Below are positions 15,489 through 20,963 of a stretch of DNA of 64,000 bases, piece after piece. Each line of letters begins with the position of its first letter. Position 1 is the first letter of the stretch. Below the pieces are notes generated by a model, which saw nothing but the letters and a program-made list of their open reading frames with translations, searched no databases and was not told the origin of the DNA. The stretch is taken from assembly GCA_021774735.1 (NCBI GenBank), contig JAJFIS010000022.1, positions 1-64,000 of the forward strand. Direction: 5' to 3'. This DNA is from Alphaproteobacteria bacterium (GTDB lineage: Bacteria > Pseudomonadota > Alphaproteobacteria > Sphingomonadales > Kordiimonadaceae). A program made the position numbers and the translations under genes.

Positions 15489-16919
15489 ATGAAGAATTCA
15501 TCCCTCAAACGTTTAGTTCTTATGATAGGAACTTTGATTGTAGCGACCATGAGCACAGCCTTCATGGTAGGGTTTAATCTATATTCAGCTGCGGTAGAAT
15601 CTGAGGAAGACCGCTTGGTTGTAGCGGCTAAAAGCCTTGCCAGTGTTATTAGCGTTAGCCACCGGCACATTGGGGAAGACTCCGATGAAGAAATTTTACT
15701 AATAATCCAAGAAGCAATGGCTGAATTGAATTATCAAGGATTTGGCACAACTGGTGAAATCGTTTTTAGTCGGAAGATAGGCAAGACAATATCCTTTATT
15801 AGTAAACGGCGACATATTGATAACAGTAATAAAACGGAAAACTCTATTGATGATACACTACCACTATTATCAAAAAGAGCCCTACCCATGCGCTATGCCT
15901 TATCGGGGGAAAGCGGCTCGGTAATTGGGCCTGACTATAGGGGGGTTGATGTCCTTGCAGGCTATTCTCCCATCAAAGGTTTAAATTGGGGCGTCGTTGT
16001 GAAAATAGATTTGAATGAAGTGCAGGCACCCTTTGATGCCGCCTTCCTCATGGGTTTTGCCCTTACCCTTGTTACAACTTTCATCAGTGCCATTCTTATT
16101 TATGCTCAAAATGAAGGCGTGATTAATGACCTGAGCGGAGTAACGCGAAAGCTACAAACAGAACTGCAACGTAGCATAAAGTTAGAACAGGAATTAAAGA
16201 TATCGCTAGACGTTTCTAAGAATGCCAATAAAGCCAAGTCCGACTTTTTATCTTCCATGAGCCATGACTTAAGAACACCATTAAATGCAATTATCGGATT
16301 TTCTGAAGCCATAAGCCTTAGAATATTTGGCCCAGTTGGCTCAATAAAATACGAAGAATATGCCATAGACATTCATAAAAGCAGCCTTTATTTGTTAGAA
16401 CTTATTAATGACATCCTAAATCTGTCCAAGTTAGATGCTGGAAAATATATCATTGATAAGGAAAGTATAGACCCTGAGGAGGCAATAACAGAATGTTATG
16501 ATATTCTGTCTAAGCTTTCACAAGATAAGGGGGTGGAATTATCCATCCAGATCCCTAAGGGCATTCCATCTGTTTTCGCGGACCCTTTATCACTCAAGAA
16601 AATATTAATAAATCTAACATCCAATGCCATCAAATACACACCCAAGGGCGGAAATGTAAATTTATCCATACAACTGGATTCAAAGGGGCACATTTTCAAA
16701 GTTAAAGATACGGGACTTGGCATTCCTAAAGAAAAAATAGTATCTATCGTTGAACCCTTTAGCCGTCATGATGTAAACCCACACCATAGTGAAGAGGGCA
16801 CAGGGCTTGGGTTGTCTATTGTGAAGTCCTTGGTGGATTTACATGATGGGAACTTAGAAATCACAAGCGAACTGCATGTGGGAACAAGCGTCAAAGTTAC
16901 ATTGCCTTTTAAGACCTAG
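15489..16919 (+). CDS. Membrane sensor histidine kinase (orphan)
   Basis: A 476-residue kinase. Two helices (about residues 8-29 and 187-206) flank a periplasmic sensor domain of about 155 residues with a Cache-like look (ALSGESGSVIGPDYRGVDVLAGYSPI). The HisKA box is FLSSMSHDLRTPLNAIIGF (His259). The ATPase domain shows NLTSNAIKYTPKGG (N box), DTGLGIPKEKI (G1) and GTGLGLSIVKSLVDLH (G2). No response regulator is adjacent and no receiver domain is present, so the partner is unknown. It has more AT-rich codons than its neighbours. Confidence 0.9.
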   Translation: MKNSSLKRLVLMIGTLIVATMSTAFMVGFNLYSAAVESEEDRLVVAAKSLASVISVSHRHIGEDSDEEILLIIQEAMAELNYQGFGTTGEIVFSRKIGKTISFISKRRHIDNSNKTENSIDDTLPLLSKRALPMRYALSGESGSVIGPDYRGVDVLAGYSPIKGLNWGVVVKIDLNEVQAPFDAAFLMGFALTLVTTFISAILIYAQNEGVINDLSGVTRKLQTELQRSIKLEQELKISLDVSKNANKAKSDFLSSMSHDLRTPLNAIIGFSEAISLRIFGPVGSIKYEEYAIDIHKSSLYLLELINDILNLSKLDAGKYIIDKESIDPEEAITECYDILSKLSQDKGVELSIQIPKGIPSVFADPLSLKKILINLTSNAIKYTPKGGNVNLSIQLDSKGHIFKVKDTGLGIPKEKIVSIVEPFSRHDVNPHHSEEGTGLGLSIVKSLVDLHDGNLEITSELHVGTSVKVTLPFKT

Positions 16920-16944: not shown

Positions 16945-17496
16945 TTACAAGTCGCAGTTCGGGTCGCCGCATGCATGCCCGTGGTGATGATGGGCTTGGC
17001 GCTGTGCTTTTTGATATTTTTTCATCAGCATCTGGCGCTTCACCGGTTTCAAATGGTCAAGGTACGTCCGTCCATCAAGATAGTCCATTTCATGTTGGAT
17101 AACAGCCGCTAACCAGCCCTCGGCTTTTTGACTTTGCTCTTGGCCGGCTAAATCAATATATGAAACCGATATGCTTTGGTGCCGACTGATCTGCGCCGAG
17201 ATGCCCGGAAAAGACAAGGAGGCTTCTTCATATAATTGAAGGCCATCAGAGCGCTGGGTTATGATAGGGTTTATCATGGTGAACGGGGTCCTGACGCCTT
17301 CTTCTTGCAAGTCAACAACGATGATGCGTTCCAACAATCCTACCATATTGGCCGCTAGACCAATGCCCTTTTCATGGTAAAGAATCTCTAGCATAGCTGC
17401 CGCATTGGCCTTGACCATCTCATTTACATCGCTGATAGATTCCGCCACTTTCCTGAATATGGGATTAGGGGCAAGGATAAGCTCAAGGTCATTCAT
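16945..17496 (-). CDS. Peptide deformylase homologue with degenerate active site
   Basis: A 183-residue protein with the peptide deformylase fold. Active deformylases share three motifs: G-x-G-x-A-A-x-Q, E-G-C-L-S and H-E-x-D-H. Here they read GIGLAANM (Gln replaced by Met51), EASLS (metal-ligand Cys replaced by Ser93) and HEMDY (second metal-ligand His replaced by Tyr139). Only one of the three metal ligands, His135, remains, so ordinary deformylase activity is unlikely. A His/Cys-rich C-terminal tail (HHHHGHAC, then CDL) could bind a metal. The gene overlaps the sufE stop by 8 bp, suggesting coupled expression with Fe-S assembly. Family certain; function unknown. Confidence 0.85.
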   Translation of the reverse strand: MNDLELILAPNPIFRKVAESISDVNEMVKANAAAMLEILYHEKGIGLAANMVGLLERIIVVDLQEEGVRTPFTMINPIITQRSDGLQLYEEASLSFPGISAQISRHQSISVSYIDLAGQEQSQKAEGWLAAVIQHEMDYLDGRTYLDHLKPVKRQMLMKKYQKAQRQAHHHHGHACGDPNCDL

Positions 17497-17911
17497 AGCT
17501 TTTCGCGATCACTCCTATGCGTTCAACCATGGCAAACAGGCCATTGGCCCGCATGGGGCTAAGGTGCCCTTTCAGGTCTAATTGTTCTAAAACCGCCTTC
17601 GCATCGGTCGCTAAAATCTCCGCTGGGGTTTTGCCTGAAAAAATCAACAGCATTAACGCCACTAAGCCTTTTACAATATGAGCGTCACTGTCCCCTTCAA
17701 AGAAAAGGCAGCCCCTATCGCTTAAATGCGGCACCAACCAAACTTGGCTCTGACAGCCCCTAACCTTAAACGCATCGGTGCGACCTGCCTCATCCATCAG
17801 CGGTAATTGTCTGCCAAGGTCTATTAAATATCGGTAACGCTCATCCCAATCATCAATGAAAGCAAATGTATCAAGCACATCATTAAGGCTAATATCTTCA
17901 AAGGCCATCAA
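17489..17911 (-). CDS. sufE: Cysteine desulfuration protein SufE
   Basis: A 140-residue SufE/CsdE-family protein. It contains the family run RYRYLIDLGRQLP and the active-site loop VRGCQSQVWL with the sulfur-accepting Cys53. SufE takes persulfide from a cysteine desulfurase (SufS) and stimulates it. No suf operon genes are adjacent; in alphaproteobacteria sufE is often detached. It is followed, with an 8-bp overlap, by the degenerate deformylase homologue. Confidence 0.92.
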   Translation of the reverse strand: MMAFEDISLNDVLDTFAFIDDWDERYRYLIDLGRQLPLMDEAGRTDAFKVRGCQSQVWLVPHLSDRGCLFFEGDSDAHIVKGLVALMLLIFSGKTPAEILATDAKAVLEQLDLKGHLSPMRANGLFAMVERIGVIAKSYE

Positions 17912-18050: not shown

Positions 18051-18437
18051 TTAATCCTCAAGGGCTTTCAGCTCGCGGTCTAGGCGGAAACGCTTACTTG
18101 TTACATAAGCTTCCATCTCTGAGGTGCGGCGCTCTACATCCCGAAACCTGCGACGAAGCTCTGATGTGCTCCAGTCGGGTGACTTGCGGGTCTCTTTCCA
18201 AAACTGCTCTTCTCTTTCATCTTCATACATGTCAGCAGGTTTTTTATCGAGATAGAAACCCATTACGAAATAGACGAAAACAAGCGGCCAACCACCAGTG
18301 AATAAAACCGCCAAGACCGTAAGTATTCTTACAGCGCCAACCTTCATATCAAGGTAATCGGCCATTCCGGCACATACGCCCATACATTTCGCATTCGCTG
18401 GATCGCGGTATAATTTGCTTGGTCTTTTACTAACCAT
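18051..18437 (-). CDS. pspC: Phage shock protein C
   Basis: A 128-residue protein with the PspC domain: KLYRDPANAKCMGVCAGMADYL, then a hydrophobic helix (about residues 39-66, VGAVRILTVLAVLFTGGWPLV...). A charged, probably coiled-coil tail follows. PspC is an inner-membrane sensor that works with PspB to relieve PspA inhibition of PspF. I start at the ATG at 18437; a longer in-frame start (18518) lies deep inside pspB. It overlaps the pspB end by 8 bp. Confidence 0.92.
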   Translation of the reverse strand: MVSKRPSKLYRDPANAKCMGVCAGMADYLDMKVGAVRILTVLAVLFTGGWPLVFVYFVMGFYLDKKPADMYEDEREEQFWKETRKSPDWSTSELRRRFRDVERRTSEMEAYVTSKRFRLDRELKALED

Positions 18438-18651
18438 CGAATTTACTCCTCCAGCCTGGCAGTTCGTCATCCATGATGCGTTCCATGGTGCGCAGGCGCT
18501 CTTCCAGTCGTTCAGCACTTTTGCGAAGTTCCGTTAAGCTAGTTTCGTCGTCAGGGCTCATAATCTTTTGTTCTTTCCACCGTGTGACATAATGAAAAAT
18601 GATCCAAAGTGGCAGTACAATAACAACCAATAAAATGGGAATGGTGTCCAT
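18430..18651 (-). CDS. pspB: Phage shock protein B
   Basis: A 73-residue protein with one N-terminal helix (about residues 3-21) followed by the PspB signature WKEQK and a helical, leucine-zipper-like stretch (LRKSAERLEERLRTMERI). It ends DDELPGWR as in known PspB. It partners PspC in sensing inner-membrane stress. It sits 14 bp after pspA and overlaps pspC by 8 bp. Confidence 0.93.
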   Translation of the reverse strand: MDTIPILLVVIVLPLWIIFHYVTRWKEQKIMSPDDETSLTELRKSAERLEERLRTMERIMDDELPGWRSKFDG

Positions 18652-18665
18652 AGCTCAGCCCTCCT

Positions 18666-19379
18666 TTATTTTTTTGCTTTTTTGGCTGGTTTTTCGTCAA
18701 CACTGTCTTCATTTGCGGCATTGCCGGTTACTTTGGCTTTAAGTGCAACAAATTCTTGCTCGATCTCATCGTTGGTTGCAAGCTCCTCAATTTCATCAGC
18801 TAGATTTGCGCCTTTACCAAGGTCGTACACTTCGGCTTCAGCTTCGATACGGTCAAGGCGTGATTCCACTTTATCAAAGCGGTCAAAAGCGTCCTGAATG
18901 CGGTTATCATACAAATTTTTACGAACACGAACTTGTGCTGTTACGGTTTTAACCCGCGCCTGAATGGTGGCTTTCTTGGCCTTAGCTTCGCGCAATTTGG
19001 CTTCAAGCTTCACCACATCGCCTTCATGGCGACCGAGTGTTTCTGTAAGACGTTCGCTTTCTTCCATAAGGTGAGCTGCCATATCAGCAACTTTTGCTTT
19101 TTCAACAAGAGCACCTTTAGCAAGGTCCTCGCGGCCTTTAGAGATGGCAAGTTCGGCTTTGCGTTCCCATTCAGCTTGGGCGTCATCAAGTTTTTTCAAA
19201 CGACGCGCTACGTCTTTTTGGTCGGCAATTGACCGTGCTGCGCTAGAGCGCACCTCAACAAGCGTATCTTCCATTTCTTGAATAATCATCCGGATGATTT
19301 TTTCAGGATCCTCCGCTTTATCAAGCATGGAATTAATGTTGCTGTTGAAAATATCGGTGAGGCGGGAAAAAATACCCAT
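18666..19379 (-). CDS. pspA: Phage shock protein A (ESCRT-III-like membrane-repair protein)
   Basis: A 237-residue PspA/Vipp1-family protein starting MGIFSRLTDIFNSNINSMLDK. It is almost entirely coiled coil, with the conserved AEDPEKIIRMIIQEMEDTL run near the N-terminus and a Lys-rich tail. It binds PspF to hold it inactive and forms membrane-protecting assemblies on damaged inner membrane. It lies 181 bp after the small first gene of the operon. Confidence 0.95.
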   Translation of the reverse strand: MGIFSRLTDIFNSNINSMLDKAEDPEKIIRMIIQEMEDTLVEVRSSAARSIADQKDVARRLKKLDDAQAEWERKAELAISKGREDLAKGALVEKAKVADMAAHLMEESERLTETLGRHEGDVVKLEAKLREAKAKKATIQARVKTVTAQVRVRKNLYDNRIQDAFDRFDKVESRLDRIEAEAEVYDLGKGANLADEIEELATNDEIEQEFVALKAKVTGNAANEDSVDEKPAKKAKK

Positions 19380-19560
19380 AACAATGTTCCTTTCTTATGT
19401 TCCTCGCTGCCAGATATTATTTTTTTATGTCTGGACTATTTTAAGTTTTGCTGTCTCGTGTCTCGGGCTTTTTAAGAGCCATTTTTGAACCCCTTATACT
19501 ATTATTGTTATTTGGGGCGTTTCCTCGCTGAGCCGTAACCGGCTTCTTATTATTGATATT

Positions 19561-19719
19561 TTAATGATGCTGGGTACGTTTAGCTGTTGTGCCTTGGTCC
19601 CGGGGTGTACGGCCTTCGCTTCTGCGGATAAGACCCAAACAAGCAGCAATATTATCGCTTTCGCTGACCACCAGATTGGCGCTGGCTAAAACCGGTGTTA
19701 GTTGCAGTAATTTGTTCAT
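19561..19719 (-). CDS. Small 52-residue protein, first gene of the psp transcript
   Basis: A minus-strand frame starting MNKLLQLTPVLASANLVVSE and ending in a basic/polar tail (RRSEGRTPRDQG...). The ATG has a good Shine-Dalgarno (AGGAAAG, about 3-4 nt before it). It is the first reading frame after the sigma-54 promoter, with about 65 nt of leader, and is followed by pspA on the same strand. No family is recognised. The hydrophobic first third could be a short amphipathic helix. It could also be a leader peptide; coding status rests on context and ribosome-binding site. Confidence 0.55.
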   Translation of the reverse strand: MNKLLQLTPVLASANLVVSESDNIAACLGLIRRSEGRTPRDQGTTAKRTQHH

Positions 19720-19796
19720 CGTCTTTCCTTCGCTTGGATCTTATGCCCATTCATTGGCCGATGCGTTCGCCCATTTGGGCTCACACAGTCTATATA

Positions 19797-19811
19797 GCAA
19801 CCACCGTGCCA
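19797..19811 (-). promoter_or_regulatory. Sigma-54 (-24/-12) promoter of the psp operon
   Basis: On the minus strand the sequence TGGCACGGTGGTTGC matches the sigma-54 consensus TGGCACG-N4-TTGC at every defined position, with T as the next base. It points toward the 52-codon gene and pspABC, and pspF is divergent on the other side. Transcription should start about 12 nt downstream, near 19786. PspF enhancer sites are expected between 19812 and 19931 but could not be defined by eye. Confidence 0.93.
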
Positions 19812-19931
19812 GTTTTCTTGAGATTAGTAACCCTTTGATTATATTGAATTTTATTTAGACATATATCATTAGATTGAAATAAATATGAAATAATAACTAG
19901 ATATTAGTGTAAATTACTATAGATTAGCATA

Positions 19932-20963
19932 ATGGATATACACCGCGAACAAACACAAATGATTGGGTCGGCGAGCGCACTCTTGGACCTTATGGATCAA
20001 GTGAGCCGCGTGGCGCCGATGAACCGTCCCATATTGGTTATTGGTGAGCGCGGCACCGGCAAGGAACTTATTGCTGAACGATTACACTATCTCTCTAGTC
20101 GCTGGGACGCTGCTTTTCTAAAACTTAACTGCGCCGCATTGCCCGAGACACTTTTGGACAGCGAGCTCTTCGGCGTTGAGCCCGGGGCCTACACAGGCGC
20201 AGTCAAGAGACGCGCAGGCCGCTTTGAGCTCGCCGACAAAGGCACTCTATTTCTTGATGAAATTGCGACATTATCGATGGCGGCTCAGGAAAAACTTTTG
20301 CGCGTGATTGAATATGGCGAATTTGAACGCCTAGGTGGTCAGACAACATTGCGCACCGACACGCGCGTGATTGGTGCCACTAACATTGATCTGCCCGCTG
20401 CTGCTGACATGGGTGATTTTCGTCATGACTTGCTCGACCGGATCGCTTTTGACGTAATCACTGTGCCGCCCCTTCGCGCACGCAGGGATGACATCCCCGA
20501 ACTTGCCCTGCATTTTGGCCTTGGCATGGCACGAGAGCAAGAATGGCCAGCCTTCGCGGGCTTTTCAGAGCGAGCGATGGACGCGCTTTGCAGTTATGCT
20601 TGGCCCGGTAATATCCGCGAGCTTAAAAATGTCGTTGAGCGCGCCATCGCCCGTGCGTGGGACGGCGAAGAACCCATTGATGAGATAACCTTTGACCCGT
20701 TTGACAGCCCGTGGCGCCCTGCTAGGAAACCAGCGACCAATAGATCTGCGGATGTACCTATTCATGATCAGCACCATCAAGATGTAGCCATGCAAGATGC
20801 CTTTGACATCCGCAGTCATGTTCTTGCTTTTGAGAAAAAAATGCTCACATCAGCCCTTGCAAACAACCGATATAATCAGCGCGCGACCGCAAGATGGGTT
20901 GGTTTAAGCTATGATCAATTACGTCATTCTCTCAAAAAGCATGACTTGCTTGAGGGAAGTTAA
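19932..20963 (+). CDS. pspF: Sigma-54-dependent psp operon activator PspF
   Basis: A 343-residue enhancer-binding protein that lacks a receiver domain, as PspF does. Walker A GERGTGKE is at residues 38-45, the sigma-54 contact loop GAYTGA at 85-90 (Tyr instead of the more common Phe), and Walker B GTLFLDE at 104-110. WPGNIRELKNVVERAI leads to a linker and a Fis-type helix-turn-helix at the C-terminus (YNQRATARWVGLSYDQLRHSLKKH). Similarity to Escherichia coli PspF is close throughout. It diverges from the sigma-54 promoter it should activate; PspA is its expected inhibitor. Confidence 0.95.
   Translation: MDIHREQTQMIGSASALLDLMDQVSRVAPMNRPILVIGERGTGKELIAERLHYLSSRWDAAFLKLNCAALPETLLDSELFGVEPGAYTGAVKRRAGRFELADKGTLFLDEIATLSMAAQEKLLRVIEYGEFERLGGQTTLRTDTRVIGATNIDLPAAADMGDFRHDLLDRIAFDVITVPPLRARRDDIPELALHFGLGMAREQEWPAFAGFSERAMDALCSYAWPGNIRELKNVVERAIARAWDGEEPIDEITFDPFDSPWRPARKPATNRSADVPIHDQHHQDVAMQDAFDIRSHVLAFEKKMLTSALANNRYNQRATARWVGLSYDQLRHSLKKHDLLEGS

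Follow-up and report, generated by a model that had tools for sequence, protein, structure and literature searches.

Deformylase relatives that have lost their enzymatic residues are already known, both as inactive second deformylases (PMC12690207) and as an NCBIfam subfamily of alphaproteobacterial proteins, NF009484, that lacks the same residues as the protein described here. The type 3 deformylases of Staphylococcus aureus and Streptococcus pneumoniae are second copies with altered motifs for which laboratory activity was not found (PMC12690207). Motif loss alone is no proof of inactivity, because deformylases with altered motifs can keep their activity, as does the type 3 deformylase of T. 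brucei according to a citation within PMC12690207. B. subtilis DefA, acting on PtkA, offers an earlier example of a deformylase that, in an inactive and metal-free form, does something other than catalysis (PMC11194573). Here we report a further deformylase relative from a member of the Kordiimonadaceae, which on our best reading represents an old alphaproteobacterial clade of pseudo-deformylases. We found no description of this clade (the Met/Ser/Tyr clade, after its residues at three defining positions) in the open-access literature on inactive or deformylase-like proteins in alphaproteobacteria.

The window, i.e. the whole stretch of 64,000 nucleotides that was analysed, carries the following features at this locus:

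16945..17496 (-): pseudo-deformylase gene, 183 aa, with Met51, Ser93, His135-Glu136 and Tyr139 (ORF, Pfam match, alignment to 53 distinct orthologues)
17344..17346 (-): codon for Met51, where deformylases have the catalytic Gln (counted from the ATG at 17496-17494)
17218..17220 (-): codon for Ser93, where deformylases have the metal-ligand Cys (counted from the ATG)
17080..17082 (-): codon for Tyr139, where deformylases have the second metal-ligand His (counted from the ATG)
16987..17046 (-): C-terminal basic helix spanning roughly residues 151-170, a helix in the model, with Lys153, Lys160 and Lys163 kept; it corresponds to the helix by which E. coli deformylase binds ribosomes
16948..16992 (-): His/Cys tail HHHHGHACGDPNCDL, residues 169-183, of low model confidence and probably disordered
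17489..17911 (-): sufE, an ordinary SufE with the motif GCQSQVW, its last 8 bp overlapping the start of the pseudo-deformylase gene

The pseudo-deformylase frame comprises 183 codons and a stop with no internal stops, and its start is well placed, because only four codons separate the ATG at 17496 from the preceding in-frame stop (a 187-residue open frame). A membrane histidine-kinase-like ORF (15489-16919, +) converges on it, with 25 bp between the two ORFs. The encoded protein matches Pep_deformylase (PF01327) at E = 3e-43 and 147.5 bits against a gathering cut-off of 22.8, and lacks three residues by which the enzyme is recognised: the Gln of motif I (GxGLAAxQ), the Cys of motif II (EGCLS) and the second His of HExxH. 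Motif I reads GIGLAANM, with the catalytic Gln replaced by Met51; motif II reads EEASLSFPG, with the metal Cys replaced by Ser93; and motif III reads QHEMDYLDG, with the second metal His replaced by Tyr139 and the first metal ligand His135 and catalytic Glu136 retained. Two of the three metal ligands and one catalytic residue are thereby replaced. An AlphaFold2 model of the protein, built on a 26-sequence alignment, has low confidence in the tail only (pLDDT 93, pTM 0.87), and lies within 1.1-1.4 A of E. coli deformylase structures, with a TM score (target length) of about 0.94. Ratios of dN/dS of about 0.06-0.16, from pairs with unsaturated and estimable dS, indicate purifying selection. A sequence-only reading of this DNA had described exactly these three substitutions in a well-kept fold and a maintained protein with an intact frame, and the Pfam match, predicted structure, absence of internal stops and selection estimates bear it out on each point.

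Orthologues were collected by searching 60 genomes of the order and by a single scan of named genomes; at roughly 41-57% identity, they came from Kordiimonas, Pseudokordiimonas, Sneathiella, Emcibacteraceae and various alphaproteobacterial MAGs. When all searches were pooled into one alignment, the set Met/Ser/His-Glu/Tyr was found in 53/53 distinct orthologues, Gln/Cys/His-Glu/His in 49/49 canonical sequences, and His/Ser/His-Glu/Gln in 13/13 distinct NF009484-type sequences; rows were assigned to the three groups according to what stands at the Gln position, and the remaining positions then agreed without exception. Because the substitutions are identical in every orthologue and absent from every canonical sequence, they are neither chance nor a quirk of one strain, which answers the earlier question of whether an orthologous group would share them. 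Beside M51, S93 and Y139, an alignment of 42 orthologues showed G46, N76, P77, E91, P97, R105, Q134, H135, E136, G142 and D147 to be invariant. Positions fixed at >=90% in the clade and differing from the canonical majority comprise the catalytic 51, 93 and 139, together with 98 (Glu to Gly), 132 (Cys to Val) and conservative changes of Ile to Leu at 6 and 157, so that clade-specific fixation affects 3/5 catalytic positions and 4 of the roughly 161 remaining ones, a concentration in the active site with Fisher p = 0.0005. At residue 95, two after Ser93, the orthologues are divided between Ser (27/53) and Cys (26/53), where canonical sequences have Ser in 48/49; this Cys does not occupy the metal-ligand position.

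The gene is rare across the class, with 9/387 genomes of a broad sample carrying it (the window's genome counted), and common in the window's family, where it is present in 18/21 genomes and missing from 3/21. In a plasmid collection queried with the window protein, no record's best match reached 60% identity, and the best among the matches listed was 42%. A duplicate in decay and about to disappear would account for the missing catalytic residues and this patchy occurrence in the class, but is contradicted by substitutions conserved across deep lineages, purifying selection, intact frames and carriage by most of the family; we give it hardly any credence.

In the window's family, the genomes that encode the pseudo-deformylase also have another deformylase gene. 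In the window's own genome a canonical def in which every motif is present is located elsewhere (G000:C11) and has an fmt-like ORF after it, so the search for a def-fmt pair elsewhere that the sequence-only reading had proposed was successful, and a second, canonical-scoring deformylase match was present in 18/18 carriers of the 21-genome family sample. Motif loss, invariant replacement residues and this constant company of a canonical-scoring def together make a role in deformylation unlikely, and we think it very probable, judging from these sequence comparisons, that the clade protein is not a working deformylase. One might instead imagine an active hydrolase of changed substrate with a rebuilt metal site, in which Ser93, His135 and Tyr139 or residues of the tail served as ligands. 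Deformylases with altered motifs can be active (PMC12690207), the replacement residues do not vary within the clade, and the metal ligand His135 and general base Glu136 of HExxH show no change anywhere in the clade. However, the catalytic Gln is gone along with two of the three metal ligands, every carrier in the family sample has a canonical-scoring def, and the clade alignment contains no fixed, clade-wide new Cys, His, Asp or Glu able to replace the lost ligands. We therefore rate an active hydrolase as distinctly improbable.

Changes in the active site extend beyond the catalytic residues. The equivalent of E. coli position 93 is Phe or Tyr in 53/53 orthologues, and position 125, a Leu in E. 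coli that sits in the pocket for the methionine side chain, has Trp, Phe or Tyr in 50/53. As the fixed catalytic replacements are accompanied by changed positions near the pocket, the active site has been rebuilt and not merely eroded, and the aromatic residues beside it may argue against binding of formyl-Met itself. They bear directly on the most interesting rival to our reading, a formyl-peptide sensor, whose metal-free pocket would bind N-formyl peptides when oxidants poison the iron-dependent deformylase, with the bound form regulating another protein and the Cys-to-Ser change giving insensitivity to oxidation. The minor deformylase DefA of B. subtilis inhibits the kinase PtkA most strongly as an inactive apo form, and formyl peptides strengthen that inhibition (PMC11194573); also in its favour, His135, Glu136, Gly46, Glu91 and Arg105 are invariant in the clade. 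Against this stand the new aromatic residues in the pocket, which more than anything else speak against formyl-Met being bound tightly, the lack of a conserved partner gene nearby, and the nature of DefA itself, which is an active, metal-binding enzyme. A sensor of this kind thus strikes us as unlikely, if somewhat less so than a rebuilt hydrolase.

Our preferred reading, a binding protein, draws on the C-terminal helix. In E. coli deformylase, L149, K150, R153 and K157 touch uL22, and K160 and R163 touch 23S rRNA (PMC12690207). The equivalents of K150, K157 and K160 are each basic in 52/53 orthologues, the R153 position is variable both in the clade and in the canonical sequences used here (in which Met is commonest), and a C-terminal helix is predicted at residues 151-170 of the window protein in the AlphaFold2 model. 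The clade keeps a basic C-terminal helix, which supports retained ribosome docking. A ribosome-associated binder was among the options of the sequence-only reading, and the kept helix favours it; the docking itself we infer. We propose that the pocket of the clade protein no longer holds the catalytic metal and would not hydrolyse formyl-methionine, and that its conserved basic C-terminal helix still brings the protein to the ribosomal exit. Once there it would act by binding: it would either compete with the active deformylase or use its remodelled pocket to hold N-termini or short peptides. A His/Cys tail was added in Kordiimonadaceae and some of their relatives and probably binds a transition metal. 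The conserved basic residues may be mere inheritance from an active ancestor, and we put the case for a pseudo-deformylase still docking at the ribosomal exit through its kept helix at about even.

The tail itself (AHHHHGHACGDPNCDL) is present in the window protein as first described. Defined as at least three His or Cys residues of which at least one is Cys, such a tail occurs in 28/53 distinct orthologues and 0/49 canonical deformylases, in two main forms: one is CxDPxC (CGDPNC in the window), the other HVHGPxC or, more loosely, HxHxxxC. Every orthologue read from a genome of the window's family carries it, and those of Sneathiella and Emcibacteraceae do not; a MAG labelled Kordiimonadaceae (L047), which the tree places with Emcibacteraceae, also lacks it. 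The proposed check on whether the tail is conserved along with the substitutions was thus positive for part of the clade and negative for the remainder. As only about half of the clade has one, the tail cannot represent the core function, and it looks like a metal-binding addition in a subset of lineages. We also considered the tail as a module shared with other proteins and rejected this, as a search of the 21 family genomes for the HVHGPxC pattern in DNA matched clade tails: four of these genomes each held two clade-tail copies, and one extra match, in a frame overlapping another ORF, looks like chance.

The sequence-only reading had described the gene as coupled to sufE (SufE Pfam E = 2e-45; 8 bp in common, ATGAATGA) and suggested a metal- or sulfur-handling partnership with SufE; on such a view the tail would carry metal for Fe-S cluster assembly. 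The 8-bp overlap was confirmed from the ORF coordinates and tails of CxDPxC or HxHGPxC type recur in 28/53 orthologues, but the linkage does not recur: in 17/17 other family genomes with both genes, sufE was on a different contig or at least about 270 kb away, and none was found near other orthologues in the DNA examined (mostly 1.5-5 kb on each side, less at contig ends). With the tail missing from about half of the clade as well, a SufE partner is rejected on synteny and is in our view very improbable. Adjacency to sufE is peculiar to the window's genome, the sole representative of its genus in the sample, and SufE is a chance neighbour; the overlap may bring about translational coupling in this strain and is no evidence of shared function. 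A conserved operon with any other gene was likewise rejected, since neighbours were common only to close relatives and no gene neighbourhood was shared among orthologues beyond these. Upstream of sufE, a likely phage-shock locus spans 18051-20963, its genes named from their sequences only: PspA-like (18666-19379, -), PspB-like (18430-18651, -), PspC-like (18051-18518, -) and a divergent PspF-like activator (19932-20963, +). A terminator-like hairpin (18000-17976, -) lies between this locus and sufE, of a kind no commoner than chance in this DNA.

To place the clade relative to NF009484, we inferred a tree of 85 rows under a mixture model, in which a branch with support 100/99 split off the Met/Ser/Tyr clade and another with 100/100 the NF009484 set, the bootstrap being not fully settled. 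The best tree sets the two clades apart, and on that topology the same three residues would have been lost twice, with Cys becoming Ser both times; a tree constrained to unite them is worse by 4.1 log units, without being rejected by the AU test (p-AU 0.43). The window protein scores 126-127 bits against NF009484 (PRK12846.1-5), below the curated cut-off of 190. A protein annotated 'peptide deformylase' on Sinorhizobium meliloti pSymB (CP090106.1, L134:4001-4519) reads GIGITASH, SEGSVSMPG and LQHEIDQLNG, with His/Ser/Gln at the three defining positions, and reaches 274.9 bits against the same cut-off. Rhizobial sequences of this type are presumably entered in UniProt as 'peptide deformylase-like'. 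We can imagine the Met/Ser/Tyr clade as metal-free proteins that have no enzymatic function, read N-formylated N-termini at the ribosome exit and go on working when oxidants disable the iron deformylase, with the metal-binding tail as a second input in Kordiimonadaceae and NF009484 perhaps having taken the same route independently; we offer this as a speculation with long odds against it.

These relationships matter for annotation. The equivalog model TIGR00079 'peptide deformylase' scores the window protein at 138.6 bits against a cut-off of 103.95, and NF001159 at 132 against 125, and the NCBIfam models searched do not separate the Met/Ser/Tyr clade. As both models accept a protein without three of the five catalytic residues, automatic annotation will call it an enzyme, and through TIGR00079 per-genome deformylase counts and lists of inhibitor targets include probable non-deformylases.

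Set against the systems described to date, the window protein shares with canonical type 1 E. coli Def (PF01327) the fold, the His-Glu pair and the basic C-terminal helix at about 36% identity, and differs from it in its added tail and in the loss of the catalytic Gln together with two of the three metal ligands. Type 3 deformylases have altered motifs I and II, and the Met/Ser/Tyr clade also loses the second His of motif III (compared by description only). The precedent of DefA differs in that DefA is itself an active metal enzyme. NF009484, seen in Sinorhizobium, Mesorhizobium, Aminobacter and others, is the closest parallel: like the Met/Ser/Tyr clade it belongs to the deformylase fold family, has replaced the catalytic Gln, the metal Cys (likewise by Ser) and the second metal His, retains the His-Glu of motif III and has Gly for the Glu at E. 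coli position 95, and it differs in its fixed set of His/Ser/Gln. Two alphaproteobacterial clades with parallel, fixed replacement at the same three residues provide a clear-cut, testable example in which the duplicate of an essential enzyme has turned into something else, possibly while still placed on the ribosome.
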